DNA of 64,000 bases from Acidimicrobiia bacterium (GTDB lineage: Bacteria > Actinomycetota > Acidimicrobiia > Acidimicrobiales > SKKL01): NCBI GenBank assembly GCA_016649895.1, contig JAENWR010000004.1:1-64000 (forward strand), read 5' to 3'. The notes under the pieces are model-generated. The model worked only from the letters and a program-made list of their open reading frames with translations. It had not been told where the DNA came from and did no database searches. Both the position numbers and the translations under genes were made by a program. Position 1 is the first letter of the stretch, and each line of letters starts with the position of its first letter. Positions 9,201 through 26,636 of this stretch are shown here, piece by piece.

Positions 9201-10356
9201 CGAGAACTGGCCCGGCGAGGCAACCCTCAAGGTATCCAAAGTTTGGTTCCGGGCTGATGGCTGGAACGGCAAGGTGCTTCTCGAAGGGCGTGAAGTTGCA
9301 GAGATTACTGGTTACCTCGATGCTGGATCGCGAGTGTCAGGTGTCCCGAATCGGCTCGTTGGTGAGGGCAAACGATCTTTCAAAGGCTCCGACCTAGGTG
9401 GAAATGGCTTTGTGTTGTCTGAAGCAGAGGCACATAGCCTTCGGGCGACTGACGAACGCAATAGTGCTGTCACGTTCCGCTATTTGAACGGCGAGGATCT
9501 AAACTCCCGAGCCGACCTTTCGGCCAGCCGTTGGGTCATCAACTTTTTCGACTGGCCGCTCGAGAAGGCGCAGTCGTATTCCGCCCCGTATGCCATCGTT
9601 GAGGCGCGAGTGCGGCCGTACCGCCTGACCGTGAATCGCGAGAGTCACCGTAAGTGGTGGTGGCACTACGGCGATAAGCGCCCGGAACTCTATGACGTGA
9701 TCCAGGGATACTCTCGAGTCCTTGTAATTGCGCAGGTGAGCAAGACCCTTCAGCCGGCTTTCGTTCCAACTGACCAGGTACTGTCGGCCATGTTGATTGT
9801 GTTCGCCTACGATGATGACTTTCATTTTGGCGTATTGGCGAGCAATTTGCATGGGATCTGGGTCGCCAAATATGCATCGACCTTGCGTAGCGACCTTCGC
9901 TATACGCCGTCAGACGTGTTTGAAACATTTCCCCAGCCAGGGTCGAACGCTGTGGTCGATTTGGCCGGTCGATCACTTGATGAATTCCGGTGCGATCTAA
10001 TGGCCCGAACCCAGCTCGGCCTCACGAAGACCTACAACCAGGTTCACGCGCCCGCCGAGGGAGCCCCGGACATCGTCAGGCTCCGGGAACTTCACATCGA
10101 GCTCGATTGTGCGGTCCGGGATGCCTACGGCTGGACCGATCTCAAGCTGAACCACCAACACTGGGAAACGCCGCAAGGGATGCGGTTCACGGTGAGCCCT
10201 GAGGCGAAGGACGAGCTGCTCGACCGCCTACTGGAGCTGAATCAGGAGCGATATGCCTCGGAGGTCGCGGCCGGCCTGCACGACAAGAAGACGAAGAAGG
10301 TAGCGGCGAAGCGGGCAATGAAGGCTGAGAACCCGTCCCAGGAGACGTTGCTGTGA
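6217..10356 (+). CDS. drmMI: DISARM class 1 adenine N6 DNA methyltransferase DrmMI
   Basis: A 1,379-residue N6-adenine methylase like other large Type IIG/BREX-PglX-type enzymes. The SAM-binding motif (CDPAVGSGA, about residues 631-639) and the catalytic motif NPPF (about 909) are intact. The protein would mark host DNA at the DISARM site. The part after NPPF, roughly 9,000-10,020, uses AT-richer codons than the rest (29 of 60 bases are G or C in 9,781-9,840, against 37 of 60 in 8,281-8,340), suggesting that the target-recognition region was exchanged by recombination. The ATG at 6217 overlaps the drmD stop; the end overlaps the GTG of drmA by 4 bp. Confidence 0.92.
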   Translation: MARSRSAPERRGPVANPKAAIQDWLTLVDPDGAFLTTTELAAVFPHGFEPMPADKRTELRARVADLGTDAADRSDLRRWLLETALDWDDQLVDGQAIPATASIRAPEHGIQLRPDLVLLDVEDPNKARLGVFVWPLGTRLDRRTDITVSGDTWPASPIQRAETWCREGSIPLALVTDDDQWVLVWGPRGAPAASCRWRVGDLADERILQSGLVALFGARRFFAVADDETLEKLFERAANAEAEVTKGLGSSVRRSVELLVAAISRDDVASNGTVLDGVASTEVYESAVTVLMRLVFLLFAEERRLLPAEDPLWAESYSVLTLRDDLRTSSARDGEDALERRSTAWHRLLATFRAVHGGVNHDRLTLPAYGGSLFDPDRFPFLEGRRPPDHLVVNDIDLGPAPDAATGPELPVAIDDRTVLAILDALLTVEVKSGRTKVAQRVSYKALDVEQIGHCYEGLLDHGCAPVEQLAVGLIGSDGNEPEFTITELEAHLAIGPDSLCEWLADKTRCNKKATALEKLLDEEPSGVDLARLRVACGHDDGTVARVLPFWGLIRADLRGLPVVLLPGSQFVTQTSTRRNMGAQYTTKALAEEVVQYALEPLVYEPGPQNETDPTKWKLRTPAEIVRLRVCDPAVGSGAILTAAGRYLADRLVESVVEHGPGEGPFAGRLAELGEAPADEQTVLARREIVDHCLYGVDKNPVAAEMAKLSLWLTTMARERPFTFLDHAIQVGDALLGITDMEQLRWLHLDPAERRGKRGFESVAIDLRLDEAVELARRLQELSVVTVRDATEKQLLHEELQVTLGDLSVVADAIVGAALSTAGKSAGSLEQRLDSQMDRIRAALDDGRPYIERRAAIDVLRGVSTTWLRSDLPDEVPMPWERQCLHWPLAFPEVFLAEGRTGFDSIVGNPPFLGDAKITSTLGTSFREYLVERIAQTRGRADLIGFFVRRIRRLLGRAGAAGILATNTVAQGDTREVGLDYLVGTGSALYRAVKSENWPGEATLKVSKVWFRADGWNGKVLLEGREVAEITGYLDAGSRVSGVPNRLVGEGKRSFKGSDLGGNGFVLSEAEAHSLRATDERNSAVTFRYLNGEDLNSRADLSASRWVINFFDWPLEKAQSYSAPYAIVEARVRPYRLTVNRESHRKWWWHYGDKRPELYDVIQGYSRVLVIAQVSKTLQPAFVPTDQVLSAMLIVFAYDDDFHFGVLASNLHGIWVAKYASTLRSDLRYTPSDVFETFPQPGSNAVVDLAGRSLDEFRCDLMARTQLGLTKTYNQVHAPAEGAPDIVRLRELHIELDCAVRDAYGWTDLKLNHQHWETPQGMRFTVSPEAKDELLDRLLELNQERYASEVAAGLHDKKTKKVAAKRAMKAENPSQETLL

Positions 10357-13300
10357 GCACCACCCCCACCCCGGCGGAGCTGCGATCCGAGCTCGAGCGC
10401 CTCGTCCTGACGGACCTGCTGGGTCCGTCGGACACCCACGAGCAGCTGCCGGGCGTTCGTAGCCCGGTGCGGGAGTGGTACCTGGTCGGGATGCTGGCCC
10501 CGATGGGGACCATCGTCGACCCGAGTCGCAACGATGGTGACGACCTGCAAGACGGGGACGAGGGCGGTGCTCCGGGTCCCGATGACCGGCCGTCGAAGGT
10601 GGTGCTGTTCCCGTCATCGGTGGGGCTGACAGCCGCAGTCGACCCGTCGTGTTCGTCGCTGGAGGTCTCGGCATCGTGGGGTCGGTACGAGAAGATCGAC
10701 AACCCGGATGAGACGGCGGTGCGTGAGTACGCGCGCCTGTGGCAACGGCACCCCGCTGGTGGAATGGTGACGGTGCGGCTGGTCGAAGGCGACATCGACC
10801 CATTCGCACCCGATCCTGCCCAGCCGGAGGTAGTGGTCCGTGGACGTTGTCGGGCGACACCGAATTGCTGGTTGATCACGCTTTTCCTGGTCAACGAGCA
10901 GATGCCGACGGCGACCAACATCGATGAGCGGTGGCTGTTCCAGATCGATCTGTCAGCAGCAGCCGGCGATGGTTCGGCAGTGTTCGTGGGTCGCCAACTC
11001 GCTCTTCCTCAGGAGACGACCCACAGCGATGCGGAGCTACGGCATCTGGACCTGCTCTACCGGGAGAAGGTCGAGTTCGCGGTTGGCCACGGCATCGCAG
11101 TACACGCTGATGCGGCGCCTGATGACCCACACCGGGCCACAGCGGTGCGGACGGCGGTGATCCCGCGCTCGGAGGTCGCGAAGGTCGAGGCGCCTGGACC
11201 CGACGATCCCGCACTCGACGAAGTCGAGCGGGAGCTGATGGGCCGCGTCGACTTCGACATGGAGGCGCTGTCGAAGCTCGACGGGCCGGCCGCCACGGCC
11301 GCGCTTTGCCCGCTCGCAGATGCCTATGACCGGTGGCTCCGTCGCCAGGAAGCCCGCGTAGCTGGATTCAGCGGTGAGGAGGCCGAGGCGGCGCGGGTAG
11401 CGGTTGACACCGCCCGGGGCATCGCAGCACGCCTGCGGGTCGGCATCGAGTTGCTGACATCTGATCCGGTGGCGGCTGAGGCGTTCGCGTTTGCCAACCA
11501 CACGATGTGGCAACAGCGCGTCCACACGCTCGTCGGCTTGGCACGGCGTGACGATCCGAAGCTGAACCTGGCCGATGCCGAGGCCCTGATCGCCACCACG
11601 CCGAACTGGTCGTGGCGGCCGTTCCAGATCGCCTTCGTGCTCGTGAACCTCCCATCGCTGGCCGATCCCACCCACGCCGAACGCCAGCTCAATACCGGCA
11701 CTGCCGATCTGTTGTTCTTCCCGACCGGTGGCGGCAAGACCGAGGCCTACCTGGGTCTGACCGCGTTCACCCTCGCGATCCGCCGGCTCCAGGGTGACGT
11801 CGACGGCCACTCGGGCGAGGGCGGTGTCGGGGTGTTGATGCGCTACACCCTGCGATTGCTGACCTCCCAGCAGTTCCAGCGCGCCGCCACGCTGATCTGT
11901 GCCTGTGAAGTGCGCCGCCGGGAACTCGTCGCCGCTGGTGACGAACGGTGGGGTGAGACCCCCTTCCGGATCGGAATGTGGGTGGGAGGTTCGGTCAGCG
12001 CCAACAAGACCCAGGACGCGGCCCGCGATCTCGATGACCTGCGCAACACCGGGTGGGCCAAAGGTGCAGGCCCGACTTCCCTGGTGGCGTGCCCGTGGTG
12101 TGGCGAGGAGCTCGACCCCAAGCGCGACGCCACCTCGCACAAACACCTGTGGCGGACGCTCATCACCTGCGGCGACTCGAAAGGCCGTTGCCCTTTCACG
12201 GCGAAGCGCTCGGACGGCGAGGGGATCCCGGTCGTCAGCGTCGACGAGGAGATCTACCGGCTTCTGCCCGACCTGGTGATCGCCACGGCGGACAAGTTCG
12301 CCCAGCTCCCGTGGCAGGGAGCGACCAGCGCGCTGTTCGGGCGCGTGACGCGCAAGTGCTCCCGCCATGGCTTCCGTACGTCTGACTTGGACGTCGTCGG
12401 TGATCACAAGGAAGCCGACAAGCACGCCAAGGCCGGGGATCTCGATGCCGCCACCACCAACGACTGCCTGCCTCGCCGTCCGCCCGATCTGATCATCCAG
12501 GACGAGCTTCACCTGATCGCCGGACCGCTCGGTTCGCTGTTCGGGTTGTACGAGACGGCGATCGACGAAATCGCCTCGTGGACCGTCGACGGCAAGCCCT
12601 CGCGTCCGAAGGTGGTCGCCTCGACGGCCACGATCCGTCGTGCCGAGCATCAGACCTACAACCTGTTCTGTCGTCGCCTCGCGGTGTTCCCCCCGCAGGT
12701 CCTCGACGCCGGTGACTCGTTCTTCGCCGTGGAACGCCCGCTCGATGAGACACCGGGCCGGCTGTACCTAGGGGTCTGCGGGATGGGGCAGCGGTTCAAG
12801 TCCGTCGCCACCCGCGTCTACACGACGATGATGGCGGCCTCTCAGGTGCTCTACGAGAAGCACGGGGCGGCGGCGGACCCGTGGATGACGACCGTTGGCT
12901 ACTTCAATGCCCTGCGGGAGCTGGGCGGGATGCGCCGCATGCTCGACGACGACGTGTCGAACCGTCTCCGCCGTACCGATCGTCGGGGACTCGCCAACCG
13001 CTACGTGAACGAGGTCAAGGAACTGACCTCGCGGATCAGCTCGAGCGACATCCCTGCCACGCTCGACCAGCTCGGGGTGCGCTTTACCGGCACGAAGCCG
13101 GAGAAGGGCCGCTATCCGGTCGACGTCGTTCTGGCGACGAACATGATCTCGGTCGGCGTCGACGTCCCCCGCCTCGGCTTGATGATTTGCTCGGGGCAGC
13201 CCAAGACCACGGCCGAGTACATCCAGGCCACCAGCCGAGTCGGGCGAGACAACGCCGGTCCCGGCCTTGTCATCACGCTCTACAACTGGGCACGGCCACG

Positions 13301-13901
13301 AGATCTCTCGCACTACGAGACCTTCGAGCATTACCACCAGACGTACTACCGACAGGTCGAAGCCCTGTCGGTCACACCGTTCGCCCGCCGTGCCCTCGAC
13401 CGTGGGCTCACCGCTCTCATGGTAGCGGAGGCTCGCCACACGAACGCTGCCTGGAACCCGAAGGGCGCGGCCCAGACGGTGCCTGTCAATGAACCGGCGT
13501 TCGACTCGATCGCTGCCGCATTGCGCCACCGCGCCGACCTGGTCGCCAACCCCGCGGCCGCTGCCGAGGTCGATCAGCTCGTCGCCACCCGGCGTGACAA
13601 GTGGTCGAAGCAACAGAAGGCACCGGGCGTCACCCTCACCTATGCCCGAGGTCGGGGCGATGCCATCGACCTGTTGCAGTCGCCCGAGTCGGGGCCTTGG
13701 ACCGAGTTCACCGTCCCCAACTCGCTGCGGGAGGTCGAGGTCGGCGCCAACCTCCTACTTCGCGAGGACGACCCGTCCGACGACCCGACGGCCGAGTACC
13801 CCGACCCGCCCGCCGAAGAGTCCGACGAGGAGACGCCGCTCGCCGCCGAAGACGCTGATGCCGCGGACGGCGACGTGATCATCGACGAGGACGCCCCGTG
13901 A
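10353..13901 (+). CDS. drmA: DISARM protein DrmA, helicase
   Basis: A 1,182-residue superfamily 2 helicase, the normal size for DrmA. Visible motifs are Walker A PTGGGKT (about residue 457), a zinc-ribbon-like CPWCGEEL pair further on, the Walker B-like DELHL (about 716), STATI, and the C-terminal motifs ATNMISVGVD and QATSRVGRD (about 960). The C-terminus is very acidic. DrmA works with DrmB as the core DISARM complex that binds and blocks phage DNA, as known for the family. The GTG start overlaps the drmMI stop (GTGA), and its own stop overlaps the drmB start in the same way. Confidence 0.93.
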   Translation: MSTTPTPAELRSELERLVLTDLLGPSDTHEQLPGVRSPVREWYLVGMLAPMGTIVDPSRNDGDDLQDGDEGGAPGPDDRPSKVVLFPSSVGLTAAVDPSCSSLEVSASWGRYEKIDNPDETAVREYARLWQRHPAGGMVTVRLVEGDIDPFAPDPAQPEVVVRGRCRATPNCWLITLFLVNEQMPTATNIDERWLFQIDLSAAAGDGSAVFVGRQLALPQETTHSDAELRHLDLLYREKVEFAVGHGIAVHADAAPDDPHRATAVRTAVIPRSEVAKVEAPGPDDPALDEVERELMGRVDFDMEALSKLDGPAATAALCPLADAYDRWLRRQEARVAGFSGEEAEAARVAVDTARGIAARLRVGIELLTSDPVAAEAFAFANHTMWQQRVHTLVGLARRDDPKLNLADAEALIATTPNWSWRPFQIAFVLVNLPSLADPTHAERQLNTGTADLLFFPTGGGKTEAYLGLTAFTLAIRRLQGDVDGHSGEGGVGVLMRYTLRLLTSQQFQRAATLICACEVRRRELVAAGDERWGETPFRIGMWVGGSVSANKTQDAARDLDDLRNTGWAKGAGPTSLVACPWCGEELDPKRDATSHKHLWRTLITCGDSKGRCPFTAKRSDGEGIPVVSVDEEIYRLLPDLVIATADKFAQLPWQGATSALFGRVTRKCSRHGFRTSDLDVVGDHKEADKHAKAGDLDAATTNDCLPRRPPDLIIQDELHLIAGPLGSLFGLYETAIDEIASWTVDGKPSRPKVVASTATIRRAEHQTYNLFCRRLAVFPPQVLDAGDSFFAVERPLDETPGRLYLGVCGMGQRFKSVATRVYTTMMAASQVLYEKHGAAADPWMTTVGYFNALRELGGMRRMLDDDVSNRLRRTDRRGLANRYVNEVKELTSRISSSDIPATLDQLGVRFTGTKPEKGRYPVDVVLATNMISVGVDVPRLGLMICSGQPKTTAEYIQATSRVGRDNAGPGLVITLYNWARPRDLSHYETFEHYHQTYYRQVEALSVTPFARRALDRGLTALMVAEARHTNAAWNPKGAAQTVPVNEPAFDSIAAALRHRADLVANPAAAAEVDQLVATRRDKWSKQQKAPGVTLTYARGRGDAIDLLQSPESGPWTEFTVPNSLREVEVGANLLLREDDPSDDPTAEYPDPPAEESDEETPLAAEDADAADGDVIIDEDAP

Positions 13902-15735
13902 GTGCGAAAGGCACTTACGACGGCCCGGTGCGGGTCGGGACGATCCGTCCCAGCCAAGCCATCCACTCCTACGGAGTGGGGTCACTCATCGACCTTCCGA
14001 ACCTGAGCGTCATGGTCGGCGGTCTCGACCGGTGGGACACCACTCGCCAAGAGGTCATCACCGAGGATCGTCTGCTCGACGCAGTGCGCACCCGGCTCGG
14101 CTCCCAGGTCGAGGTACTGCGCGCTCTTCCTGCCGAGCCATCGACGCCAAACCCCTACGACGACTGGGCGCGCGTCGGAGTGCCCGTCTCCATCTTTCCC
14201 CGGTGGCTTCGATGCACCGCGTGCAACCGGCTGTTCCCCGTCGCGTCGGGCGCCCTGAAGCTTGACACGAACATGTACCGGCCCGACCGCACCCGCTATA
14301 CACACCCGAACTGCGACAAGGCCCGCAAGCCGCCGCCCGCCGTGCCGGCCCGATTCGTCGCCGGATGCACCAACGGACACCTCGACGACTTCCCGTGGGT
14401 GCGCTTCGCCCACGACGGCGTCGCTACCTGCCCGAACCCGGTCCTCCAGGTCAACGACATCGGCTCGGGTGGTCGCGCCACCGACCTGCTCGTGAAGTGC
14501 CTCTCGTGTGGGGCCAAGTCGACCCTGGCGAAGGCGTTCGGTCCGGCCGCGAAGGGGGTCATGCCGCAGTGCCGCGGTCGCCATCCCCACCTTGGCCTCG
14601 CGAGCGAACCGTGCGGTGAGCAGCTCCGCTCCCTGGTCCTCGGTGCCTCGAACCTGTGGTTCAACAGCAGCGTCTCGGTTCTCTCGCTTCCCGTTGGTGG
14701 CGGGTCGCTCGGTCAGCTCGTCTACGACAACTGGGACGCGCTCGAAGGCATGCCTGGGAAGGACACCCTGGTCTACACGTTGGGCCGGGACCGGTTGCTT
14801 GCCGCCGCGTTCGCCGGTGTCCACCCTGATGACATGTGGGATGCCATCGAAGCTCGGCGCGCCGGAGCCACTGCGCTACCTGGAGCCGATGTGCACGGCC
14901 CGGAGTGGGTCGCACTTACCAGCGGATCCCAGGGGCAGACCTCGCCTCACTTCGAGGCTGAACCAATCGACGCACCGGCCGACTTCGCCGGGAAGCTCGC
15001 CGGCGTCACGCTCGCGCACCGGCTACGGGTGGTCACCGCCTTGTGCGGCTTCAGTCGGATCAGCGCCGGCGAACCCGGCGACCCACGCGCCACCGTGCGC
15101 CTCGAGACCAAGGCTCACCCGCCTGGGTGCCGGTAGTGGAGAACCGAGGCGAAGGGGTCTTCCTCCGTTTCGATGAGGCTGCTGTTCAAGAGTGGGAGGC
15201 GGCTGCGTTCGACAACCCGTTGTTTGCCACCATGCGTCGGGCCCATCGGGAGTACCGGCAGGCCCGCAACCTTGATCCCAGCGAAGGGTGGCCCGGCGAG
15301 CGGTACGTGCTGCTCCACTCTCTCGCTCACGCGCTCATCAACGAGCTGGCCATCGAATGTGGCTACTCGTCGGCGTCGATCAGCGAACGCATCTACAGCC
15401 GACCGCCTGGCTATGGCCCCGAGCCGATGGCCGGCATCTTGCTCTACACGTCCGCTCCTGATGCGGAAGGCACGCTCGGCGGACTCGTGAACCTTGGTAA
15501 GCCGAGCGAGCTGGGTCCGATCCTTCGCCGTGCCCTCGAGCGCTCCGGGCTGTGCAGCTCCGATCCGCTTTGTGCCGATCACGAACCAGATGCCGCCACC
15601 GGTGCACTCCACGGGGCCTGCTGTCATGCCTGCCTACTCGTGGCCGAGACCAGCTGTGAGCGGGGCAACCGATATCTCGACCGATCAGTCCTGGTCGACA
15701 CCTTCGGGCACACCGGGCTGGAGTTCTTCGCTTGA
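13898..15735 (+). CDS. drmB: DISARM protein DrmB (DUF1998), frameshifted in this sequence
   Basis: Two reading frames together give one full-length DrmB. The first (13898-15136) has the N-terminal IRPSQAIHSYGVGSLIDLPN signature and several zinc-binding Cys pairs (CTACNRLF, CLSCGAKS). The second continues from about 15,118 with AWVPVVENRGEGVFLRF, the DUF1998 core HSLAHALINELAIECGY, and the final Cys cluster CCHACLLVAETSCERG. The break is at about 15,113-15,125, where one base is missing in a run of C (CACCCGCC where CACCCCGCC would keep the frame). It may be an assembly error or a real lesion; a real one would remove the DUF1998 half and probably inactivate DISARM. The end overlaps the TTG start of drmC. 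Confidence 0.88.
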
Positions 15736-16475
15736 GCGAGCTCGCCGATGCTGTAGCCGCAACGGTCGGAGTGCTTGGCCGCGCCCACGTCCGGACCCTG
15801 GCCGACGCGTACCGCGACAGCGGCCCGTTCTCGGCCGCCTTCGCCACGAAAGCCGCGCAGGCGGTTCCGGCGCCCCATCACGACGAGGTCGCGAGCCTCA
15901 ATGCAGCCTGGGCCGCTCACCCCGACCTTCCCGGCGTCGCCCTCGCGGTGGCCCTTGAATCTGTGCAAGCCGCACAACGCGGTGCCGACGTACCCGCCGT
16001 CGAAGTCGTGGTCACCGGCCCTGATTCTCCTGCGGCACCGGTACGGCTCACGTCCGAGGTCGTCCGCCAGCTCATCGACCAGGCCACCCACCGTGTGACC
16101 CTCGTCAGTTACGCCGCCTACCGGATGGCCGCTGTGATCGCTGCACTCGATGCCGCCGTTGCCCGCGGGGTGACCGTGAACCTCATCCTCGAATCCGCGG
16201 CGAACCTCGACGGCGGGGGAGGGGCCCACGCCTATGCCAAGTACCGCACCTATCACTGGCCCACGGACCGTCGGGAACCACCCGACGCCAAGCTCCACGC
16301 GAAGGCCGTCATCATCGACAGCAGCGACGTGCTGCTCACCAGCGCCAACATGACGAACGCCGCGTACGACAAGAACATCGAGCTCGGCGTCCTCTGCCGT
16401 GGCGGCGGCGTCGCCCGGCAGGTCCAGGCTCACTTCGACGCCCTGATATCCCGCGGCATCCTCGAACCGGTGTAG
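15732..16475 (+). CDS. drmC: DISARM protein DrmC, phospholipase D-like
   Basis: A 247-residue protein with a C-terminal PLD/HKD motif, KLHAKAVIIDSSDVLLTSANMT, shortened here to its key part HxK(x)4D followed by SAN. DrmC is the PLD-domain subunit of DISARM and is reported as dispensable in some settings. The TTG start at 15732 overlaps the drmB stop (TTGA), so it is translationally coupled, as are all earlier gene joins in this operon. Only one clear HKD motif is visible, so activity would need a dimer. Confidence 0.9.
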   Translation: MSELADAVAATVGVLGRAHVRTLADAYRDSGPFSAAFATKAAQAVPAPHHDEVASLNAAWAAHPDLPGVALAVALESVQAAQRGADVPAVEVVVTGPDSPAAPVRLTSEVVRQLIDQATHRVTLVSYAAYRMAAVIAALDAAVARGVTVNLILESAANLDGGGGAHAYAKYRTYHWPTDRREPPDAKLHAKAVIIDSSDVLLTSANMTNAAYDKNIELGVLCRGGGVARQVQAHFDALISRGILEPV

Positions 16476-16575
16476 TGGCTGTGCGGGATACCGGCTCTGA
16501 TGGATGTCGCTTGATGGATGTGCAGGCGGCGGGGCGAACCCTCGAGCCTGCTGGCGAGGGCTGGGAGATTCAACC

Positions 16576-17886
16576 GTGGGCACGCACGTGAACGACCCAT
16601 CCGACGCTGACATCGAGTTGGCCACCAAGCTGCTCGCAGCATGGGACAACGGCGATGGAACCTCGAAGAGCGAGCTTGAACGAGTCCACTGGGGTGACGG
16701 CAGCTCCCACGGCCGTCGCTTCGACCGCTTCATCCGGCAGAACCTTGGTGTACCAACGACTCGCCGATCGAGACAGACCGATCGGATCGCGGACCTCGAA
16801 GCTCAAGTCCGAGGGTTGGGCAGCAGTCCTGTTGGGTCCGAGCCCCCACCGTGGGAGGTCCAACTTCTCCACGCACGCGATGCATGCCTCTCGGGGCTGA
16901 GCGTCTGGAACGATCCATCGGCACGCTTTCGGACTGGGACGTTCTCCCTCCTGTTCGTCACTGCATGGAACAGTCTGGCCATCTCGATCCTGCAGAAGAA
17001 CGAGAACGAGTGGCGAAAGATCGACCAGCGCGGGAATCCATGTCTGTCCTCCGCCGGGGTGGAGCAGTCGGAAGACACGATGACCCTGGTCGGCGCCGCG
17101 TTCGCCGGAAGCGCTCACATGGGGCTGCGGGAGAACATCCGCGTCTGGGTAGACCTCCGCAACTCGGTTGCGCACCGGCACCTGCCAGCACTCGACATTT
17201 CGGTGATCCCTCACGCCCAGGCAGGACTGCTCAACTTCGAGAACGTCGTAGCGGATGAGTTCGGCGATGAGTTCGGACTCGCCGAGTGTTTGTCGGTTCC
17301 GCTCCAGCTCTCAGGCTTCCGGGACCCTGGAGTGTTGAGGTCAGCGAAGAAGCTCCAGGCAGGATTGCCCTTGGACGTTCAGGCGATTCTCTCCCGGGCC
17401 GAGGAGGCCACGCCCGAGCTCCTCGCAGACCCCACCTTCAGCCTTCGTGTCGCATTCATCCCGACGGTTCCGGGATCAGGACGCAGTCCGGACGCCGTCG
17501 CCTACTTCATGAAACCCGGGGAGGTCCCGGACGAGTTGGTGGGAGTCGTCGAGCGGTATGTGGTGCTGCCCAAGGTGGGAATGAGCGCGCGCCCCAACCT
17601 CGCGGCCTCCCAAGTCATGGCCGAAGTCGTGCGTCGGACCGGGTTCAAGTTCAACTCCCAGCACCACATCGAAGCAGCGCGACGTCTCAACGTCCGTCCC
17701 GCCGCGGGCGAGGACGACCGCACGATCGACCTCCAGCACGCCGAGTACATCACGAGCTTCAAGCGGTACCTCTACAGCCAGGCCTGGATCGATCTCCTCG
17801 TAGCGAAGTGTTCGACGCCGGAGAACTTCCTCGAGGCCACGGGCAGAGACGCCGTTCCGGTCCCTGAGGTCGACGGGGGGGATTGA
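16576..17886 (+). CDS. DUF3644-type protein with HEPN RNase-like motif
   Basis: About 436 residues from the GTG at 16576, chosen because GGGAG lies about 9 bases upstream; GTG 16588 is an alternative. The N-terminal 60 residues look like a small DNA-binding domain. The middle (about residues 95-205) resembles DUF3644: RFRTGTFSLLFVTAWNSLAI, then RNSVAH in a helix, which fits the R-x4-H signature of HEPN ribonucleases. The remaining half has no recognised domain. It follows drmC by 100 bp on the same strand and sits inside the defence island, so an RNA-targeting abortive role is a reasonable inference, not shown. Confidence 0.6.
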   Translation: MGTHVNDPSDADIELATKLLAAWDNGDGTSKSELERVHWGDGSSHGRRFDRFIRQNLGVPTTRRSRQTDRIADLEAQVRGLGSSPVGSEPPPWEVQLLHARDACLSGLSVWNDPSARFRTGTFSLLFVTAWNSLAISILQKNENEWRKIDQRGNPCLSSAGVEQSEDTMTLVGAAFAGSAHMGLRENIRVWVDLRNSVAHRHLPALDISVIPHAQAGLLNFENVVADEFGDEFGLAECLSVPLQLSGFRDPGVLRSAKKLQAGLPLDVQAILSRAEEATPELLADPTFSLRVAFIPTVPGSGRSPDAVAYFMKPGEVPDELVGVVERYVVLPKVGMSARPNLAASQVMAEVVRRTGFKFNSQHHIEAARRLNVRPAAGEDDRTIDLQHAEYITSFKRYLYSQAWIDLLVAKCSTPENFLEATGRDAVPVPEVDGGD

Positions 17887-17890
17887 GCCG

Positions 17891-18523
17891 TCAGGCGTCG
17901 TTCATGCCGAGACTGCGCAGCGCCTTGACGGTGATGCCCCGTCGATCGGCTTCGGCGCGTAGCGAGCGCTGCTCGGCGGCCTCGCGTCGCCGCTCGGCCA
18001 TGAGCGCCTCGACCGTGACGTTCCTGCGCTTCGCCTCGTCGATGGTCCGCATCTGCTTCGCCATGGCTTTGCTCGACTCCTTCGGGGCCGGTCGGGCAGC
18101 GGCTGCCGCTGCGGGCGTCTGGGGTCGGGGCGGGGGTGCACGCCGCTTCTGGCCGGAGGAGATCACCGGCTTGGATGTCGCCGACCGCCCCGTCGCCTGA
18201 GACGCGGTGGACGGCTTCATGCGCTCGGCGAGAACGTCGTGAACGGAACGGCCAGCCGCAGCTGCCTGCGCCTTGATCGACTCGGCGTCGGAGGCGCCGG
18301 CGAGCCCACGGGTCCGAACCTGGCGGGGCGTCCTGATGATCTCTGGAGCGCGTTGCGGGCCCTTGTCCTGGTTCCCAGGCTTCGCCTTCTTCTGCTTCTT
18401 CTTGCGGCGGGGTTCGAGAAGTTCGATCGGGACCTGCTCGTCGGCATCCAGACGCGCCGAGAGGTCGTGGTTCCGAGCAAGGCGCACCTCGCTGCTCGCT
18501 CGGGGCCAGTTCATCCGCGCCAC
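17891..18523 (-). CDS. Hypothetical protein, Lys/Arg/Ala-rich
   Basis: A 210-residue, highly basic and low-complexity protein. It has a lysine cluster (RRKKKQKKAK, about residues 39-48), a Pro/Ala-rich linker, and a helical C-terminus with two similar short blocks (DEAKRRNVTVEALMAERR and EADRRGITVKALRSLG) that resemble HTH or SAP-like DNA-binding helices. It starts (GTG 18523, or ATG 18514) immediately after the stop of the upstream DUF6308 gene, so it is the last gene of that operon. No family is recognised; nucleic acid binding is a guess from composition. Confidence 0.5.
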   Translation of the reverse strand: MARMNWPRASSEVRLARNHDLSARLDADEQVPIELLEPRRKKKQKKAKPGNQDKGPQRAPEIIRTPRQVRTRGLAGASDAESIKAQAAAAGRSVHDVLAERMKPSTASQATGRSATSKPVISSGQKRRAPPPRPQTPAAAAAARPAPKESSKAMAKQMRTIDEAKRRNVTVEALMAERRREAAEQRSLRAEADRRGITVKALRSLGMNDA

Positions 18524-18524
18524 G

Positions 18525-19169
18525 TCAGTGGTGGCTCATCCAGAGGGCGATATCGGCAACGCGAAGACGTGACAGATCCTTGGCGTGGCTCCCAGCGTCA
18601 GACTTGAGCGAGTCGATGGCTGCGAGGACGGCGGGATCCTGCATCGCTTCCCACCATGGCTTCCACCAGGGCTTGGACTTGCCGACGACCGACTCCATGA
18701 CGCTGTCGCGGATCGGAAGGAGCTCAGGCCGCTTTCGGGCCAGGAGCTTGTAGGTCGTCACCCTTCCCAGGCCGAGGCCGCGAAGCAGCTCGTAGAGACG
18801 CGTCGCCGGGCTGTCGCTGCCGAGGTGCGTCTCGAACTCGTCCGATGACAGGTCCCCGAGAGGCCGACCGGTCGGGATCTGCTGGAGGAGCTCGCTGATG
18901 GTGGCTCGGTCGCGGTCGAGGCGGAGGATGGCCGCCGGGGTGAGGCCCCTCTTCAGCGTGATCTGGATGGAGAGGAAGGTCACCGCGAGAAGATCCGCGG
19001 GCTCGATCGCACCGGGATCGCTCGGGCGATAGGTCTCGAATCGTGAACCGGCGTAGGGGACCGGGTCGCCCTTGCCCTCGAAGTAGTCGACGAGCCGGCG
19101 TCCCTCTGGCGCCTCGGCCGCGAGGTGAAGTCCCTGCAGCAACCGGTCGGTGAACTCGCTCGTGCTCAT
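18525..19169 (-). CDS. DUF6308 family protein (first of two paralogues)
   Basis: A 214-residue protein from the ATG at 19169. The C-terminal third has the DUF6308 features: LYELLRGLGLGRVTTYKLLARKRP split around an HhH-like turn, a conserved W-x3-W region, and the ending LRVADIALWM. A second DUF6308 protein two genes upstream in the same operon ends almost identically (LRIADIALWM) but is otherwise diverged. DUF6308 proteins are actinobacterial and of unknown function. The KLLARKRPELLP block resembles a DNA-glycosylase-like HhH, which I offer only as a resemblance. It lies 108 bp after the ATPase gene. Confidence 0.7.
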   Translation of the reverse strand: MSTSEFTDRLLQGLHLAAEAPEGRRLVDYFEGKGDPVPYAGSRFETYRPSDPGAIEPADLLAVTFLSIQITLKRGLTPAAILRLDRDRATISELLQQIPTGRPLGDLSSDEFETHLGSDSPATRLYELLRGLGLGRVTTYKLLARKRPELLPIRDSVMESVVGKSKPWWKPWWEAMQDPAVLAAIDSLKSDAGSHAKDLSRLRVADIALWMSHH

Positions 19170-19277
19170 GACGGTCTCTCCATTCGTGGGGCTCTTCCTC
19201 TCCCCGTCGGTCGTCCACTCCCGATGTGAAGCCGGCTCATGACCAGCCACCCGCTGAAACCACCGCTGCCGTTCCCT

Positions 19278-20405
19278 TCACAGGTACTGGTTGTGGTGCG
19301 TGTCGTCGTGGCCATCGCCGATTGGGGCGAGATCGCCTCGTGCGGCATACATCTCTGCCAGGGTTGGCGGTTCGTTGATCGTTGTGAGGTTCGGCTGGTG
19401 CCAGGTACGAGCCTCGGTCATCGAGAAGCGGGTGAACTCGATGTTGGCGAGGCACCGGCCGGGACGGGTCACCGCGGGTGCGATGTGGGTCTTTGGCATG
19501 TTCGTGGTGAACAGCAGGAGGGTGTCGCTGCCTTGGCCGAGGAGACCGTCGGAGAGGTTGAGCAGGCGTCCGAGCGATCCGGTCGTGGCTCCCGACATCC
19601 CCCGCAGGTAGTGGTCGGTGTCCTCGGCGACGATGAGCTGCCATCGTGCTCGAGTGTCGCGGTCGGGGCCGGAGCGGATCGGCTCCCGGTCGGTGATGAC
19701 CGACTGCAGGTAGTGGGGGAGGTTGAAGAGCTGCTCGGGGTCTTTGATGTAGTGGGTGTCGCACCACGGGGACCACACCCGGGTGAGGGCTCGTAGGGCT
19801 GTGGTCTTGCCGGTGCCGGGTTCGCCTGACCACAAGATGACCTTCGCCCGCTCGGCTGGCCGCTCGAGTCCCATGAGTTCCGCGAGATGTGCTCCGACGC
19901 CCTTGGGATAGTTGCGTTCGATGTCGTCCCAGGATGGGGCCGAGATCTCGTGGTCATCGCTGTAGGGGCGGGCTGCGCCCTGGGCGAAATACCAGGAGCG
20001 GATGGGGATCGTGTCGGCGAGCTCGGGGACGGGTGCTTGTCGTTGCACGATCGCTGCCAGCTCTGCGGCCAGGTCGGCGGTCGCGGCGCTCACCTCGATG
20101 CGTGCGAAGCGAGGATTGGCGTTGACGAGGATGCGTCCTCGTGTGCACACAGCGAAGGTGGCGGTCGAGCTGTTCGAGGTCGCCTGGCGGATGATCGTCG
20201 CACCCAACGGGAGCAAGGCTTCGAGATCTACGGCCGAGTCGATGATGACTCGGTGGACGAATGGTTCGGTCCCGTCGATCTGGGTGGATCGGAACGAGAG
20301 CGCCACCAGGTCGTTTGCCTCGGTGAGGGTGCCGATGCCGGTGCTCGGTGACACCAGGCCGAGGTGCTGCTTGTTGGCGGTGCGGTGGGCCGCGATGTCG
20401 GTCAT
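19278..20405 (-). CDS. AAA ATPase with N-terminal DUF5925 domain
   Basis: A 375-residue protein from the ATG at 20405, which overlaps the stop of the upstream DUF6308 gene (ATGA). The first 170 residues match the DUF5925 type. The ATPase core has Walker A SGEPGTGKTTALRAL (about residues 195-209), a Walker B-like LIVAEDTDHYL, a sensor LLLFTTNMP, and the arginine finger region TRPGRCLANIEF, as in AAA+ proteins of the ClpX/FtsH-like shape. Set between two DUF6308 genes, it is probably the motor of a small complex. Function is unknown. Confidence 0.75.
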   Translation of the reverse strand: MTDIAAHRTANKQHLGLVSPSTGIGTLTEANDLVALSFRSTQIDGTEPFVHRVIIDSAVDLEALLPLGATIIRQATSNSSTATFAVCTRGRILVNANPRFARIEVSAATADLAAELAAIVQRQAPVPELADTIPIRSWYFAQGAARPYSDDHEISAPSWDDIERNYPKGVGAHLAELMGLERPAERAKVILWSGEPGTGKTTALRALTRVWSPWCDTHYIKDPEQLFNLPHYLQSVITDREPIRSGPDRDTRARWQLIVAEDTDHYLRGMSGATTGSLGRLLNLSDGLLGQGSDTLLLFTTNMPKTHIAPAVTRPGRCLANIEFTRFSMTEARTWHQPNLTTINEPPTLAEMYAARGDLAPIGDGHDDTHHNQYL

Positions 20406-21034
20406 CGTGACCCCATCCACAGCGCGATGTCGGCGATCCGCAGGTCGCTCATCCGCTGGTCGAGTCTCGATACCGTTGCCGTTCCGAGTGTGTCGAACGC
20501 CTGGGCGTTGTCGGCGAGGTCGTGGCGCATCGCTCTCAGGAGCAGCGGCCACGCTCGTGGTGCGGACCGCTCACCGGTGACCGGGCGGTACCAGTCGACC
20601 ACGTGACGGTCGACGAGCGGGATGAGCTCCGGGCGCTTGCGGTGGAGCACCTTGCTGAGCAAAGCCAGCGTCGGTGCCGCGGGCCACACGGCGAGCCGCT
20701 CGAGATGTTCGAGCGTTGCGTCGTCGGCGTCCGCCAGCCCCAGCCCGAGTGGGAGGGGGGCGATCCAAGCTTCGATCTCGAGCCGCTGCTCCGCGAAGAA
20801 CGCGAGATCGGCTCGGCTGAGACCGGGGTGGAGCGCAGCGGTGGAGAGGACGTCCAACGGGTCGACCGCACCCGGATCGGTCGAGATGGTGTCGTAGTAG
20901 CCGTAGGCCCACACCTCGGGTGGACCGCCGCTCCACTCGAGCCCGCAATAGCGCCGGACCCGATCCCATGTGCGGGGCACCGGGCGGCCCGCGAGTACGA
21001 GCTCCGCCTGATCGGCGGCGTCGTCGATGTTCAT
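20402..21034 (-). CDS. DUF6308 family protein (second paralogue, first gene of operon)
   Basis: A 210-residue protein. The ATG at 21034 is preceded by GGAGGAG at ideal spacing. It shares with the other DUF6308 protein of the operon the spacing of motifs: DPGAVDPLDVL near the N-terminus, LLSKVLHRKRPELIPLVDRH in the middle, and the ending LRIADIALWM. Its middle is otherwise different, so the two are old paralogues, not a recent duplication. The first helix is rich in acidic residues. It overlaps the ATPase start by 4 bp, so the products are likely made in fixed ratio. Confidence 0.7.
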   Translation of the reverse strand: MNIDDAADQAELVLAGRPVPRTWDRVRRYCGLEWSGGPPEVWAYGYYDTISTDPGAVDPLDVLSTAALHPGLSRADLAFFAEQRLEIEAWIAPLPLGLGLADADDATLEHLERLAVWPAAPTLALLSKVLHRKRPELIPLVDRHVVDWYRPVTGERSAPRAWPLLLRAMRHDLADNAQAFDTLGTATVSRLDQRMSDLRIADIALWMGSR

Positions 21035-21196
21035 GTCTCCTCCTGTCGCGGCCTCCTCATCCGAGAAGCGCCCAACACCGGCAACCCTAACCAGGGGCTG
21101 TGACACTCTTGGCCAGCACGGCATTCGCTGTGCCGGTGGGGGAGCGAGCTGCGGTCGACCCCGGGCGCTGCCCTGCCCCGGCGCCATGCTGGATTG

Positions 21197-22786
21197 ATGA
21201 GTACCTCCCACTCCGACGAAGCAGCGGTGGTGATCCACCGCGTCGGGCCACGTGAGGTGATCGCCTTCGGCCGGCCCGAGGAGCTCGACCTGCTCGGGAC
21301 GACGACCCAGGACGTCCCTCCACCCTTCGTCGCCGCCGTGCGCAGAGCCGTCGCAGCGGCTCCCCAGTTCCAAGGGCTCGCCGACACGATGTCGGGCCGA
21401 GTCCTGCGCCTCACCGGTGATGGCATGCGGCTGCTGAGAGACAACGAGTCGATGCGCACCGGCGTCCTCACCGGGGTGGTGCGCAACCCCGCGAACGGCA
21501 AGATCGCCGGCCACCTCACATTCGTCGATCCACGGTCTCTCGTCGGCCTCGCCGGAAGCCTTCCGTCGCTCGCCGGCGGCATGGCCATGCAGCTCCAGCT
21601 CGCGCAGATCGAGAGGTCACTCGCCGAGATCCAGAAGGACCTCGGCTATCTCATCCGGCACGAACACCTGAAGATCGAGGCGGGGATCGAGACCAACCTC
21701 GAGATCCTCCAGTCCGTGCACGAGCACGCGCTGCGCCACGGGGTTCTCGAGGACGACCAATGGCACCGGGTGGCCAACGTCGAGGCGTCGGTCCGGTCCT
21801 TCCACAAGGAGACCAAGAAGCACCTTCGGGCACTCGACGAGGCCTTGGAGTCGCATGGCCAGCGGTTGGCGGCGCGGGTCGCCCGGCTGAACCGGGCGTT
21901 GAACGACGAGCGGACCCTCTATTGGTTGCGGGCGCACGTCCATGCCGAACTAGCGCTTGCGAGGTGGGACGCGATCTACCTGTTGCGCCAAGCCGAGCAG
22001 CACCCCGAGGATCTCGCTGCCCTCGCCGACGACATGCAGGCGCAGATCAGGCAGCGCCAGCGGGCCCTCGCGTCAATGTCCCAGCGAATCACCCGCTACC
22101 TCATGGTCGGTGGCGGCGTGGACCGCATCTTGGATCAGCTGCGCATCGTGCGGAAAGGCAGGCTCCGGTCGTTGCTGGGGGAGCTCGACGACCTGCTCCG
22201 GGTCTTTCCAAGCAGCATCCTGGCGAACGAATCGCCAGGGACCGAGGTGGCGATCCCGCTCGGGGTCGGCAGCATCGAGCGAGGACAGTGGGACCGCCTG
22301 GTAGCTCGTGCTCATGCACTGCCGGTCGCATCGAAACCGTTGAGGGAGCGTGTCGGCCAGCAGGTGCGTCGAGTGCCCGTCCGCAGAAGGACACCTTTGC
22401 CGGAGGACGGTGCGAACGAAGGTGGCGAGTTGCCGATCCTCGCAGGGATGCTGGAGAGTCCAGTCGAGGAAGGGCGCGGTGACCGTGCCAGCGAGGAGGA
22501 GGCGACGGGGATGGCAGCAGGCGACTGGGAGCAATACGAGGGTCGTTACTCCGAACGGCCGGAGACCTACGACGCCTACGTCGACGTGTGGATCCGCAGC
22601 TCCGAGGCGTCATCAACCTTCTCGGGTTGGGCGAGCTTCTCGCAGGCCGCGAACGCCGAGCCCAAGCAACGCAGCGCGCACCCCGATCGCGTGGAGGCGG
22701 CCGAACGCATCATGAGGTCGTCGGGCTACAAGATCGGTACGCCGACCCGCCGTGGTGCCCGTCGATGGACCAGGGCTCGCGGTTGA
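21197..22786 (+). CDS. Hypothetical coiled-coil protein
   Basis: A 529-residue protein from the ATG at 21197, divergent from the DUF6308 operon with 162 bp between. A globular N-terminal domain (about 110 residues) leads to a short hydrophobic stretch (SLVGLAGSLPSLAGGMAMQL, about residues 115-134), then a long charged alpha-helical region (about 135-290) with heptad character. The last 130 residues are acidic then Arg-rich. No catalytic motif is visible. A hydrophobic segment next to a long coiled coil is seen in some membrane-linked effectors, but I do not assign a role. It converges on the Mrr gene with a 1-bp gap. Confidence 0.5.
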   Translation: MSTSHSDEAAVVIHRVGPREVIAFGRPEELDLLGTTTQDVPPPFVAAVRRAVAAAPQFQGLADTMSGRVLRLTGDGMRLLRDNESMRTGVLTGVVRNPANGKIAGHLTFVDPRSLVGLAGSLPSLAGGMAMQLQLAQIERSLAEIQKDLGYLIRHEHLKIEAGIETNLEILQSVHEHALRHGVLEDDQWHRVANVEASVRSFHKETKKHLRALDEALESHGQRLAARVARLNRALNDERTLYWLRAHVHAELALARWDAIYLLRQAEQHPEDLAALADDMQAQIRQRQRALASMSQRITRYLMVGGGVDRILDQLRIVRKGRLRSLLGELDDLLRVFPSSILANESPGTEVAIPLGVGSIERGQWDRLVARAHALPVASKPLRERVGQQVRRVPVRRRTPLPEDGANEGGELPILAGMLESPVEEGRGDRASEEEATGMAAGDWEQYEGRYSERPETYDAYVDVWIRSSEASSTFSGWASFSQAANAEPKQRSAHPDRVEAAERIMRSSGYKIGTPTRRGARRWTRARG

Positions 22787-22787
22787 C

Positions 22788-23804
22788 CTACGACCCACCC
22801 GCGTCGCGATCGACGGCATAGACCCTGCGCAGAGGCAAGAGCCGTTTCCACTCTGCGTCCAGATGCTCGTAGTGCTCGAAGATGAGGTCGACCAGCTGCG
22901 ATCCGTTGATGAGGCGGAGGTCCTGTCGGGTGCGCTCCAAGTGCCGAGCATCGGTCGAATAAGAACCCAGGGTGACGAAGAGCCCGAGCTCCGACCCGCC
23001 ATGTGCGAGCGCTCCAGCCAGCTTCTGGACGTCGGGGCCCCCGATGGTCGAGATGGTCCTTTTGCACTGGACCTTGATGATCGGCGGCTCGATGCCGAGC
23101 GCATCTCGGCTGGCGATGACGTCGACTCCGCCGTCGCCGCTCGCCATGGTTGCCGTGGCTCGATAGCCGAGAGCGTTCAAGAGACCTGCGATGAAGTGCT
23201 CGAACCGGTACGCGTCCATGTGGCGGAGGATGTCGACCACGAAGTCACGGCTGTAGGTGTCGACGCGCTCGGCGTTCGGCTCGTCCTCGGCCAGCTCGAC
23301 CTCCGGGTCACCTGGCTCCGCCACGACAGGAGTGGTCGATCCGCTCTCGATGTACTGGAGGAACTCGGCACGGTGGTTCGCCACTCGGAACAAGGTCATC
23401 GCAGACCCGATCTCATGCAGGGCTGACTTCGAGAAGGTGTCTCGGGGAACCCCGGTGTGCAGCCACTTGACCCGCCGCCGATTCGGGTGCACCTCTGCAC
23501 CCTCCTCGACGTAGAACCCGCTCTCGACGGTTCCGAAGTTCAAGGTGCGGTCAGCCTTGTTCGGGCTGATCACGTAGTCGCCGATGGCGATCTCCTCGAT
23601 GAACCGGATGAGGACGCCAGCCCAGACAGGGATCGCGCCCGGCTTCACCGCTGGATAGGTAGCTGCCAGGTGCAGCTTGAGCGACTCCCTGTCGAGATCG
23701 AGCTCGCGCACGTCTCCCAACTCTTCCCAGCCGATGCTGACGAAGCCGCCGCTGACGAGATCGAGGGAGGACTGGTCGTTGTGAATTCCCCACATGGCGT
23801 CCAT
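22788..23804 (-). CDS. Mrr-type restriction endonuclease
   Basis: A 338-residue protein. The C-terminal half is an Mrr catalytic domain of the PD-(D/E)xK fold: RFEHFIAGLLNALGY (about residues 200-214), GDGGVDVIA with Asp 228, and KVQCKR with Gln 246 and Lys 248, followed by a typical ELGLFVT strand. The N-terminal half (residues 1-130) resembles the sensor part of other restriction-system proteins with SIGWEELGDV. Mrr enzymes cut modified foreign DNA. The ATG at 23804 is preceded by TACGGT exactly 6 bases upstream, so the transcript is probably leaderless and independent of the upstream genes. Confidence 0.85.
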   Translation of the reverse strand: MDAMWGIHNDQSSLDLVSGGFVSIGWEELGDVRELDLDRESLKLHLAATYPAVKPGAIPVWAGVLIRFIEEIAIGDYVISPNKADRTLNFGTVESGFYVEEGAEVHPNRRRVKWLHTGVPRDTFSKSALHEIGSAMTLFRVANHRAEFLQYIESGSTTPVVAEPGDPEVELAEDEPNAERVDTYSRDFVVDILRHMDAYRFEHFIAGLLNALGYRATATMASGDGGVDVIASRDALGIEPPIIKVQCKRTISTIGGPDVQKLAGALAHGGSELGLFVTLGSYSTDARHLERTRQDLRLINGSQLVDLIFEHYEHLDAEWKRLLPLRRVYAVDRDAGGS

Positions 23805-24848: not shown

Positions 24849-26636
24849 TCACCCGGTGCCATTGGCGCCAGGCGTGCAGGTTCCCCGCCGGGGCGCAGAG
24901 GGCGAACGTGGCCAGATCGGCCTCGCCGCGGTCGATGAGCGCACGAGCCAGGGCGACGTTGCCATGGGCTGGTTCAGCTCACGAAACTCACAACCCGTCC
25001 CTGTCGCCCGGACCCACCCAGGTCGCACGAACTGGTCGTAGGTACGTCGGTGCGGGCCGCCCTGGTTGCGCAGCTGGAAGCATGCCGCGGTGTCGTGTTC
25101 CCATGGGCCGGCGTTGTGGCACACGTCGCGGCGATCGTTCGCTGGTGATTCGAACGCCGAGCAGGTGCCGGAGCCGGACTCGGTCAACTTCACCTCGATG
25201 AGCGCAACGATCTTCTGGCCGTCGGGATCGGTTGCCCTCATGAGGACATCGACCTGCGTCTGGTGCGTGCGGGCGGGTTGCAGCTCCCGGAGCGCGTCGT
25301 GAGGGTCGACGTACTCGAGAGCAAGGGCTTCAGGTTCGACCTGGTCGCAACCGAGCAACCGCCAGATGCCTCTCTGCTCTTCGACGGTGGTGCCACCGAA
25401 GAGGTTCAGGGCGAAGGCCTGCGACGAACGCACGTGGTCGATGAACCCGTGCAACCCACCCGCATCGCGCAGGGAGTCGAACGCCGGACGGGCAGCCTGG
25501 ATGATGCCCGCGCCGCTCTCGGCGAAGAACACCCGCCGATGCAGGGCATCACCCGAGCGCCCCACCAGGTCGGCTTCGACCCGTGCGGCGAATCGAGGGG
25601 TCGTCGCCCGTGGCCATTCGGGCACCAACCGGCGTCCGAACGACGAGATCGTGGTGTCGTCGCCGTCCCAGTCGGCAACCGTGTGCACCTGCCAGGGCAC
25701 CGATCCGTCGATGAGCTCGAGCTGCGCGGCGGTGTACGGCGACACGAGCGGAGCACCAGGGGTGGCGCCGAGCACGTAGTCGATGACGATCCTCGGCGAG
25801 GGTGCCAGGTTGTGGTTGAGGTCATCCGTCAGATGGGCGACGAGGCCGTCTCGATGCGCGGTCGCCCAAATCCAGTAGTCGAGGCCCTGGAGCGCGAGCA
25901 TCGGATCGGGGCCGATCTTCGTCTCCACGATGTGGATGGCCCCGTCGTGGCCCACGCCGAGCAGGTCGATGAAGCCGCGGGCCCCACCGGGGCGGATAGC
26001 GGGGAACTCCCGCAGCGTGGCGGTGAGGCCGAGCTTTCGGTGCAGGCCCGCCAGTCGCTCCTGTAGTTGGTGCTCGCCGTGGGAGGCGTCGATCCCACCG
26101 AGGCGGTCGGCGATGGCTGCCGACGCCGCGCTCGTCACGCGGTGGAGAACGGCCGGCGCCATCTGGTCGACCACGTCGACTTGGTGGTGGGGGCTGGGAG
26201 TGGTCGCCGATGCGACTCCGCCGGTGATCCGCATGCCCTTGCCGCGCTTGGCGATGCGCAGCACGAGCCGACCGTGGCAGTGCCACGCCAGGTAGCTCGA
26301 CCGGTGCGCGGGAACCAGCTCGGGGCAGGTGTCGGCCCATGTCAAAAGTCGCTCGATCCAGGCGGCCCGCTCGCCCAGCGCGTGCACGGCGGTGACGAGG
26401 GGATCGACGTAGGTGAGCAGCACCTCCCCGCGGCTGAGCGGCTGGCTCGGCTCGATCAGCCGATCGCTGTCGTGGACCATGACGGTGACGGGTGCGTCGA
26501 TCCACGGGATGCGTTGGCGCGTCGGCAGCTCGAGTCCTTCCGGCAACACGACGATCAGCTCACGATCGCCCATGTGGGCCAGCCCGTAGGCCAGAGCGAG
26601 GTCGGCATCGGACTGCTTCTCATCGGGGCACCCCAC
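24849..26636 (-). CDS. PGN_0703-type putative restriction endonuclease, frameshifted near the 3' end
   Basis: 595 residues as read. The first part has DEKQSDADLALAYGL and a Trp-containing loop. A nuclease-like core IVETKIGPD followed by GLDYWIWATAHR lies near residues 238-260, and the C-terminal block has IEVKLTESGSGTCSAF and CHNAGPWEHDTAACFQL, typical of PGN_0703 nucleases. After ELNQPMAT (about 24,971) the frame is lost. Adding one A to the GGCAACGTC run restores a conserved-looking tail that ends at 24,718 and overlaps the next gene. The start is uncertain: GTG 26636 lies inside a conserved strand (LIVVGCPDE), and a stop codon just upstream suggests that the 5' end is also damaged. Confidence 0.7.
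   Translation of the reverse strand: MGCPDEKQSDADLALAYGLAHMGDRELIVVLPEGLELPTRQRIPWIDAPVTVMVHDSDRLIEPSQPLSRGEVLLTYVDPLVTAVHALGERAAWIERLLTWADTCPELVPAHRSSYLAWHCHGRLVLRIAKRGKGMRITGGVASATTPSPHHQVDVVDQMAPAVLHRVTSAASAAIADRLGGIDASHGEHQLQERLAGLHRKLGLTATLREFPAIRPGGARGFIDLLGVGHDGAIHIVETKIGPDPMLALQGLDYWIWATAHRDGLVAHLTDDLNHNLAPSPRIVIDYVLGATPGAPLVSPYTAAQLELIDGSVPWQVHTVADWDGDDTTISSFGRRLVPEWPRATTPRFAARVEADLVGRSGDALHRRVFFAESGAGIIQAARPAFDSLRDAGGLHGFIDHVRSSQAFALNLFGGTTVEEQRGIWRLLGCDQVEPEALALEYVDPHDALRELQPARTHQTQVDVLMRATDPDGQKIVALIEVKLTESGSGTCSAFESPANDRRDVCHNAGPWEHDTAACFQLRNQGGPHRRTYDQFVRPGWVRATGTGCEFRELNQPMATSPWLVRSSTAARPIWPRSPSAPRRGTCTPGANGTG

Follow-up and report, generated by a model that had tools for sequence, protein, structure and literature searches.

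What do two diverged DUF6308 proteins do together with the AAA ATPase encoded between them? The three genes lie in a stretch of 64,000 nucleotides (the window) of contig JAENWR010000004.1 from an Acidimicrobiia bacterium (GCA_016649895.1; genome label G000), where an initial annotation made from the sequence proposed them as a possible undescribed defence module. Here, the genes are called A (DUF6308), the ATPase (with an N-terminal DUF5925 domain), and B (DUF6308). Together they form a cassette that moves between actinobacterial genomes as a three-gene unit, and the ATPase carries a C-terminal tail resembling the one by which Mpa engages the 20S proteasome. The reading that we favour, in which a mobile unfoldase docks on the proteasome and works with partners of glycosylase fold, is one that we hold with about equal belief and doubt.

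The three genes as a mobile unit

Bit scores for PF19827 (86.4 for A and 136.9 for B; curated cut-off 27.3) and for PF19347 (61.4 for the ATPase; cut-off 27) placed all three proteins above the family thresholds. Sequence and Pfam profiles confirmed the gene order, strand, coordinates, and families given in the initial annotation, and the 4-bp overlap of A with the ATPase gene, the LR(I/V)ADIALWM motif near the C-terminal end of both A and B, and the Walker motifs were all seen as described (Table 1). ATPase and B genes are separated by 108 bp.

Scanning named genomes with an A-type alignment yielded 12 loci. The order A-ATPase-B was present in Mycolicibacter sinensis, Mycolicibacter longobardus, genome G016, and an Acidimicrobiales metagenome-assembled genome (MAG) in which A is doubled, and the order ATPase-A-B in one Jiangellales MAG. 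Four loci (L079, L082, L113, and L116) contained A and the ATPase as a pair in one or the other order, L114 (genome G653) had A and B without the ATPase, and L080 had a tail-less DnaB-type ATPase between A and B. Because the same trio is present in other genera and families, it is more than a chance arrangement. It is also rare and patchy. Matches were found in 14 of the 397 genomes searched within the order, some of them being weaker solo relatives, and at most 11 of the 397 have A-type genes. In an even, phylum-wide sample of 396 genomes, the trio occurred only in the genome of the window.

In M. sinensis, a 2.5-kb insertion between the genes for a sensor kinase and a nitroreductase consists of exactly the three genes. 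The same two flanks align in M. longobardus, where a 45-bp gap lies between them and a separate trio (76.5% nucleotide identity) is located elsewhere. The exact insertion on one side and the short gap on the other therefore define these three genes as the unit and identify it as mobile. Recurrence in distant Actinomycetota and movement as an exact insertion thus bear out the earlier claim of a conserved three-gene unit. No match was obtained for A on plasmids or for B in phages, and a search of viral contigs for DUF6308 returned just one weak match. One DUF6308 gene (L086:9851-10570) lies in a phage contig of IMG/VR, which also encodes structural and terminase-like proteins.

Such an exact mobile unit, flanked by transposases on both sides in G016 and inserted at housekeeping sites elsewhere, could also be a self-maintaining cassette of toxin-antitoxin-like or selfish nature, with B as the toxin and A and the ATPase as its control; it would then be found in islands only since islands gather mobile genes. 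However, A and B match no toxin family, and B lineages also occur solo, without A or the ATPase. We consider this explanation very improbable.

A constant core and a variable partner

A tree built from 61 DUF6308 proteins placed all 15 A rows in one clade (99% support in the Shimodaira-Hasegawa-like approximate likelihood ratio test, SH-aLRT), whereas the eight B rows were spread among lineages that otherwise live alone. At L082, the position of B is taken by a PF21790 OGG-like protein encoded in two overlapping frames (frameshift or sequencing error). Since A constitutes one clade and B comes from several DUF6308 lineages or, once, from an OGG-like family, A and the ATPase are the usual core and B is the variable part. 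This supports the earlier proposal that neither DUF6308 protein can stand in for the other. Divergences of A and of the ATPase were correlated (Mantel r = 0.55, p = 0.005, n = 10). Support was lacking for a single clade of module ATPases: their tree shows seven changes and has a weak backbone. Past the A-ATPase pair of L113 (11324-12804) come an unassigned protein that has an HhH-like (helix-hairpin-helix) segment and a weak match to the UDG superfamily (E = 0.0015, below cut-off). An apparent fusion of B at L076 crosses masked bases and probably represents two genes.

The ATPase tail and the 20S proteasome

In each of the ten module ATPases examined, a variable linker leads into a C-terminal [GN]xY[LI], namely NQYL in the window and GQYL, GMYL, GAYL, GTYL, or GRYI in the other nine. 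When 650 distinct proteins called in the longer loci (80 residues or more) were compared, this ending turned up in 11, every one an AAA ATPase; ten belong to the DUF5925 family, and the other is a different AAA adjoining an A gene in L126. Mpa from the window's own genome (L216) ends in GQYL, and in actinobacteria the GQYL motif is needed for proteasome opening, its Q being dispensable (PMC12288473, PMC6017811). The tail, which the initial annotation had missed, looks to be of this proteasome-docking type. Walker A, sensor 1, and the RPGR arginine finger were present in all ten module ATPases, and hhalign gave 95.6% against Mpa over the AAA part; the N-terminus is a DUF5925 domain and not the coiled-coil/OB type of Mpa. 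At L126 (7231-10091), the AAA ATPase with its GAYL tail, a GNAT-like gene, and an A-type DUF6308 gene stand in a row, and an IS30-type transposase apparently interrupts the ATPase gene.

Across the family, the tail tracks the presence of the 20S proteasome, with exceptions. The 20S beta subunit was found in 20 genomes with tail-bearing copies and not found in three, compared to four and seven genomes, respectively, with tail-less copies (Fisher p = 0.005, from counts that ignore shared ancestry). The window's genome has both 20S beta (1.4e-93) and Mpa. Tail-less family members have mostly GF-type ends. These replace GxYL at L048, L049, L050, L051, L052, L207, L208, L210, and L213, mostly in genomes without detected 20S genes.

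Alternatively, the ATPase might remodel DNA or the DUF6308 proteins in the manner of McrB or RuvB, leaving the proteasome uninvolved and the tail as an inherited family trait with another role. This would agree with the three tail-bearing genomes in which no proteasome was found, and with the tail-less ATPase of L080. Yet the tail is kept while the linker preceding it varies freely, its loss is mostly confined to lineages without 20S genes, and the different AAA beside A in L126 has the same type of ending. We therefore regard remodelling without the proteasome as quite unlikely.

Possible glycosylase likeness of the DUF6308 proteins

AlphaFold2 models of A and B were all-alpha, with a pLDDT (predicted local distance difference test) of 96.5 and 92.1, respectively. 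DNA glycosylases of the HhH-GPD type recurred in the Foldseek lists of both A (3n0u twice, 1pu7, and 3fhg) and B (3fhg, 2yg8, 1pu6, 1pu7, 1xqp, and 8vx4). This recurrence looks more than random because a sequence search with endonuclease III (EndoIII) retrieves just 37 of 177,635 distinct PDB sequences; matches within one list are mutually dependent. Of 60 DUF6308 rows, B and seven more carry an HhH motif (G-h-G...) followed by Asp at +22. Apart from DUF6308 itself, the pattern picked out among 475 background proteins only an EndoIII, a further HhH-like protein, and two proteins of unrelated kind. From the motif and the weak fold matches, we infer that the fold of B derives from HhH-GPD DNA glycosylases, a likeness that had been missed before. 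Neither A nor B matched PF00730 or PF21790, PF19827 being the sole match up to E = 1. Sequence comparison matched DUF6308 to no solved structure, and a structure search of BFVD gave no match.

Defence genes in the neighbourhood of the modules

Defence genes were located near 4 of the 12 module loci (window included), versus 0 of 14 random regions mostly taken from the same genomes (p = 0.03). As the window had been picked for its island, the test was also run without it (p = 0.07). The random regions contained just a general UvrD-type helicase and stray matches. Outside the window, the neighbours comprised (i) a DrmD-like helicase and a sacsin-type ATPase at L079; (ii) a DUF1156 methyltransferase, an SNF2 helicase, and NOV_C at L080; and (iii) an MkoA-like helicase, a PLD protein, and HNH at L114. 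Solo DUF6308 genes had defence genes nearby at 4 of 11 loci, namely type I restriction-modification (L128), BREX (L127), GmrSD (L119), and an OLD-like ATPase (L122). The aggregate PADLOC matches at L127 and L128 were placed by reading gene identity, and L127 was backed by a PglZ match. Neither A nor B matched system proteins in PADLOC-DB 2.0.0, and the ATPase had generic P-loop matches only.

Of the earlier interpretation, the conserved unit and the distinctness of its two DUF6308 proteins stand; for the defence role the picture is mixed, with defence genes beside about a third of the modules and several other loci in housekeeping surroundings. An anti-phage role of the cassette is plausible; it is the likeliest role, yet also the weakest step of the best explanation.

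Some of these observations would also suit a DNA-damage module. Its DUF6308 proteins would locate damaged bases or protein-DNA crosslinks in the host, the ATPase would extract stuck proteins for degradation by the proteasome, and there would be no phage role. Glycosylase-like parts, the OGG family and UDG-like neighbours, and the ordinary chromosomal surroundings of several cassettes all speak for it. Host repair is, however, seldom so patchy or so recently mobile as this cassette, and relatives of B are located in restriction-modification and BREX loci. A pure repair function is therefore unlikely in our view.

Proposed mechanism

In the favoured reading of a proteasome-docking unfoldase, the ATPase would be an AAA+ unfoldase of classical type, using its [G/N]xY[L/I] tail to engage the 20S proteasome of actinobacteria as Mpa uses GQYL. 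A, the constant DUF6308, would be its dedicated partner or adaptor, judging from the gene pairing and the common clade. The exchangeable protein B, a DUF6308 or OGG-like one, may read or attack particular DNA bases, as the motif and the weak fold matches suggest. Once B or A meets its target (probably DNA that is modified or foreign), the ATPase might, speculatively, draw bound proteins or a controlling one into the proteasome. Observed elements of this scheme are the conserved three-gene unit and its mobility, the split into constant and variable parts, and the tail. Extended to proteasome-powered immunity, B would see modified or foreign bases of phages, A would couple it to the mobile unfoldase, and phage or host proteins on that DNA would be delivered to 20S; B would be swapped to change the target, and an ATPase of Myrnavirus phages (see below) would be a counter-tool. 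We put this extension forward tentatively, with more doubt than belief.

Several observations weigh against the reading, beyond the shared ancestry behind the tail counts. The window's tail is NQYL rather than GQYL, and an NCBIfam scan gave no match of the ATPase to TIGR03689, the Mpa family. Neither 20S beta nor Mpa was matched in the tail-bearing MAGs G749, G751, and G754; because the Mpa match is missing as well, true absence of the proteasome is possible there. With regard to the fold, Foldseek returned nothing significant for the models of A and B (best E 1.2-1.7), and the TM-scores (template modelling scores) of the glycosylase matches were just 0.14-0.37. The hairpin glycines of B are lost in A, and the HhH-Asp motif is absent from A. 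The hhalign probability of DUF6308 versus EndoIII was 0.7%, with the best segment on the motif, and a profile test for HhH-GPD with a segment hidden Markov model gave no separation, although it was a poor test because the alignment included wrong-frame rows. Finally, defence enrichment of the modules is modest and many reside in housekeeping surroundings, at least L074, L075, L076, L081, and L082.

Comparison with known systems

The Pup-dependent proteasomal ATPase Mpa/ARC resembles the cassette ATPase in its classical AAA module, its RPGR arginine finger, and the xYL tail that closes the protein behind a variable linker. In contrast to Mpa/ARC, the cassette ATPase falls below the TIGR03689 family level, has a DUF5925 N-terminus and a swapped Walker B (ED), and is mobile, patchy, and paired with DUF6308. 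The ED in place of DE occurs throughout the module and family ATPases and may slow ATP hydrolysis. With HhH-GPD glycosylases (EndoIII, OGG1, AlkA, and MagIII), B has in common the GLG hairpin and an Asp at +22, the spacing of EndoIII, whereas DUF6308 lacks a Pfam match to them, a significant fold score, and the Lys at the EndoIII position, and has K-x-L-x-R-K-R-P and LR-x-x-DI-x-x-W motifs of its own. The anti-phage DNA glycosylases Brig1 and Brig3 are likewise glycosylase-type genes of actinobacterial defence islands (PMC11078745, PMC13160076) but, unlike the cassette, have no tie to an ATPase or to the proteasome.

The DUF5925 ATPases encoded by Streptomyces and by Myrnavirus phages belong to the same family and have the same tail (GLYL and GQYL), yet adjoin no DUF6308 partner. 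In the Myrnavirus phages Phabba and ScoobyDoobyDoo (L150:4908-6131 and L151:4623-5813), the gene for the ATPase ending in GQYL is located between those for a phosphoribosyl pyrophosphate synthetase and a nicotinamide phosphoribosyltransferase. Possibly, this ATPase is a phage tool acting on the host proteasome.

No open-access literature naming DUF6308 or DUF5925 was found. Both proteasome ATPases and anti-phage glycosylases have been described, each on its own; provided that the functions proposed here are right, a mobile unit joining both types is undescribed in the searchable literature. The cassette suggests an undescribed bacterial use of the proteasome, possibly against phages. Roles of the bacterial proteasome beyond Pup-tagged proteins are an open question, and few activators are known. 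If the reading is true, a horizontally moving family of docking-tail ATPases, found in mycobacteriophages as well, would constitute a novel type of proteasome client, linking the proteasome with DNA-reading proteins and, perhaps, with defence against phages.

The island around the cassette

The dense anti-phage island noted at the outset around the trio is real, with class 1 DISARM, the DUF3644/PDC-S19 gene, the Mrr-type PDC-S02 nuclease, and REase-ARP (Table 1).

Table 1. Positions of the cassette genes, their motifs, and neighbouring defence genes in the window.
Feature	Position	Strand	Evidence or remark
Class 1 DISARM (DrmD, DrmMI, DrmA, DrmB, DrmC)	3038-16475		Profile/PADLOC matches
DUF3644 gene	16504-17886		PADLOC PDC-S19
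Gene B, DUF6308 protein, 214 aa	18525-19169	minus	PF19827, E 1e-39
B helix-hairpin-helix GLGRVTTYKLL and invariant Asp D155	18705-18773	minus	D155 22 residues past first Gly
AAA ATPase, N-terminal DUF5925 domain, 375 aa	19278-20405	minus	PF19347, E 1.1e-16; PF00004, E 1.2e-4
ATPase C-terminal tail NQYL, candidate proteasome-docking type (GQYL/HbYX-like)	19281-19292	minus	Sequence comparison
ATPase Walker B region LIVAEDTD (E-D where D-E is usual)	19614-19637	minus	Alignment
ATPase Walker A GEPGTGKT	19803-19826	minus	Sequence
Overlap of A stop and ATPase start, 4 bp (ATGA)	20402-20405	minus	Sequence
Gene A, DUF6308 protein, 210 aa	20402-21034	minus	PF19827, E 2.9e-24
A conserved segment K-x-L-x-R-K-R-P-x-L-x-P-x-x-D (K128-D142)	20609-20653	minus	Alignments
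Mrr-type PDC-S02 nuclease gene	22788-23804
REase-ARP gene	24849-26636

DrmB is split into two open reading frames (13898-15735, plus strand); possible causes are a frameshift or an error in sequencing, or DrmB may consist of two subunits here. Two genes next to the trio were rejected as members of the cassette. The basic gene at 17891-18523 (minus strand), which starts 1 nt past the end of B and had been listed with the operon, has no homologue at any other fetched locus and lies outside the conserved unit; in its product, a motif similar to A-x-x-R-G-[IV]-[ST]-V-x-A-L recurs about three times. The 530-aa gene at 21194-22786 (plus strand), divergent from A, is not beside other modules. Its homologue (L127:14945-16279, minus strand, E = 2e-27) is located in the BREX locus, which also holds the relative nearest to B in the tree.
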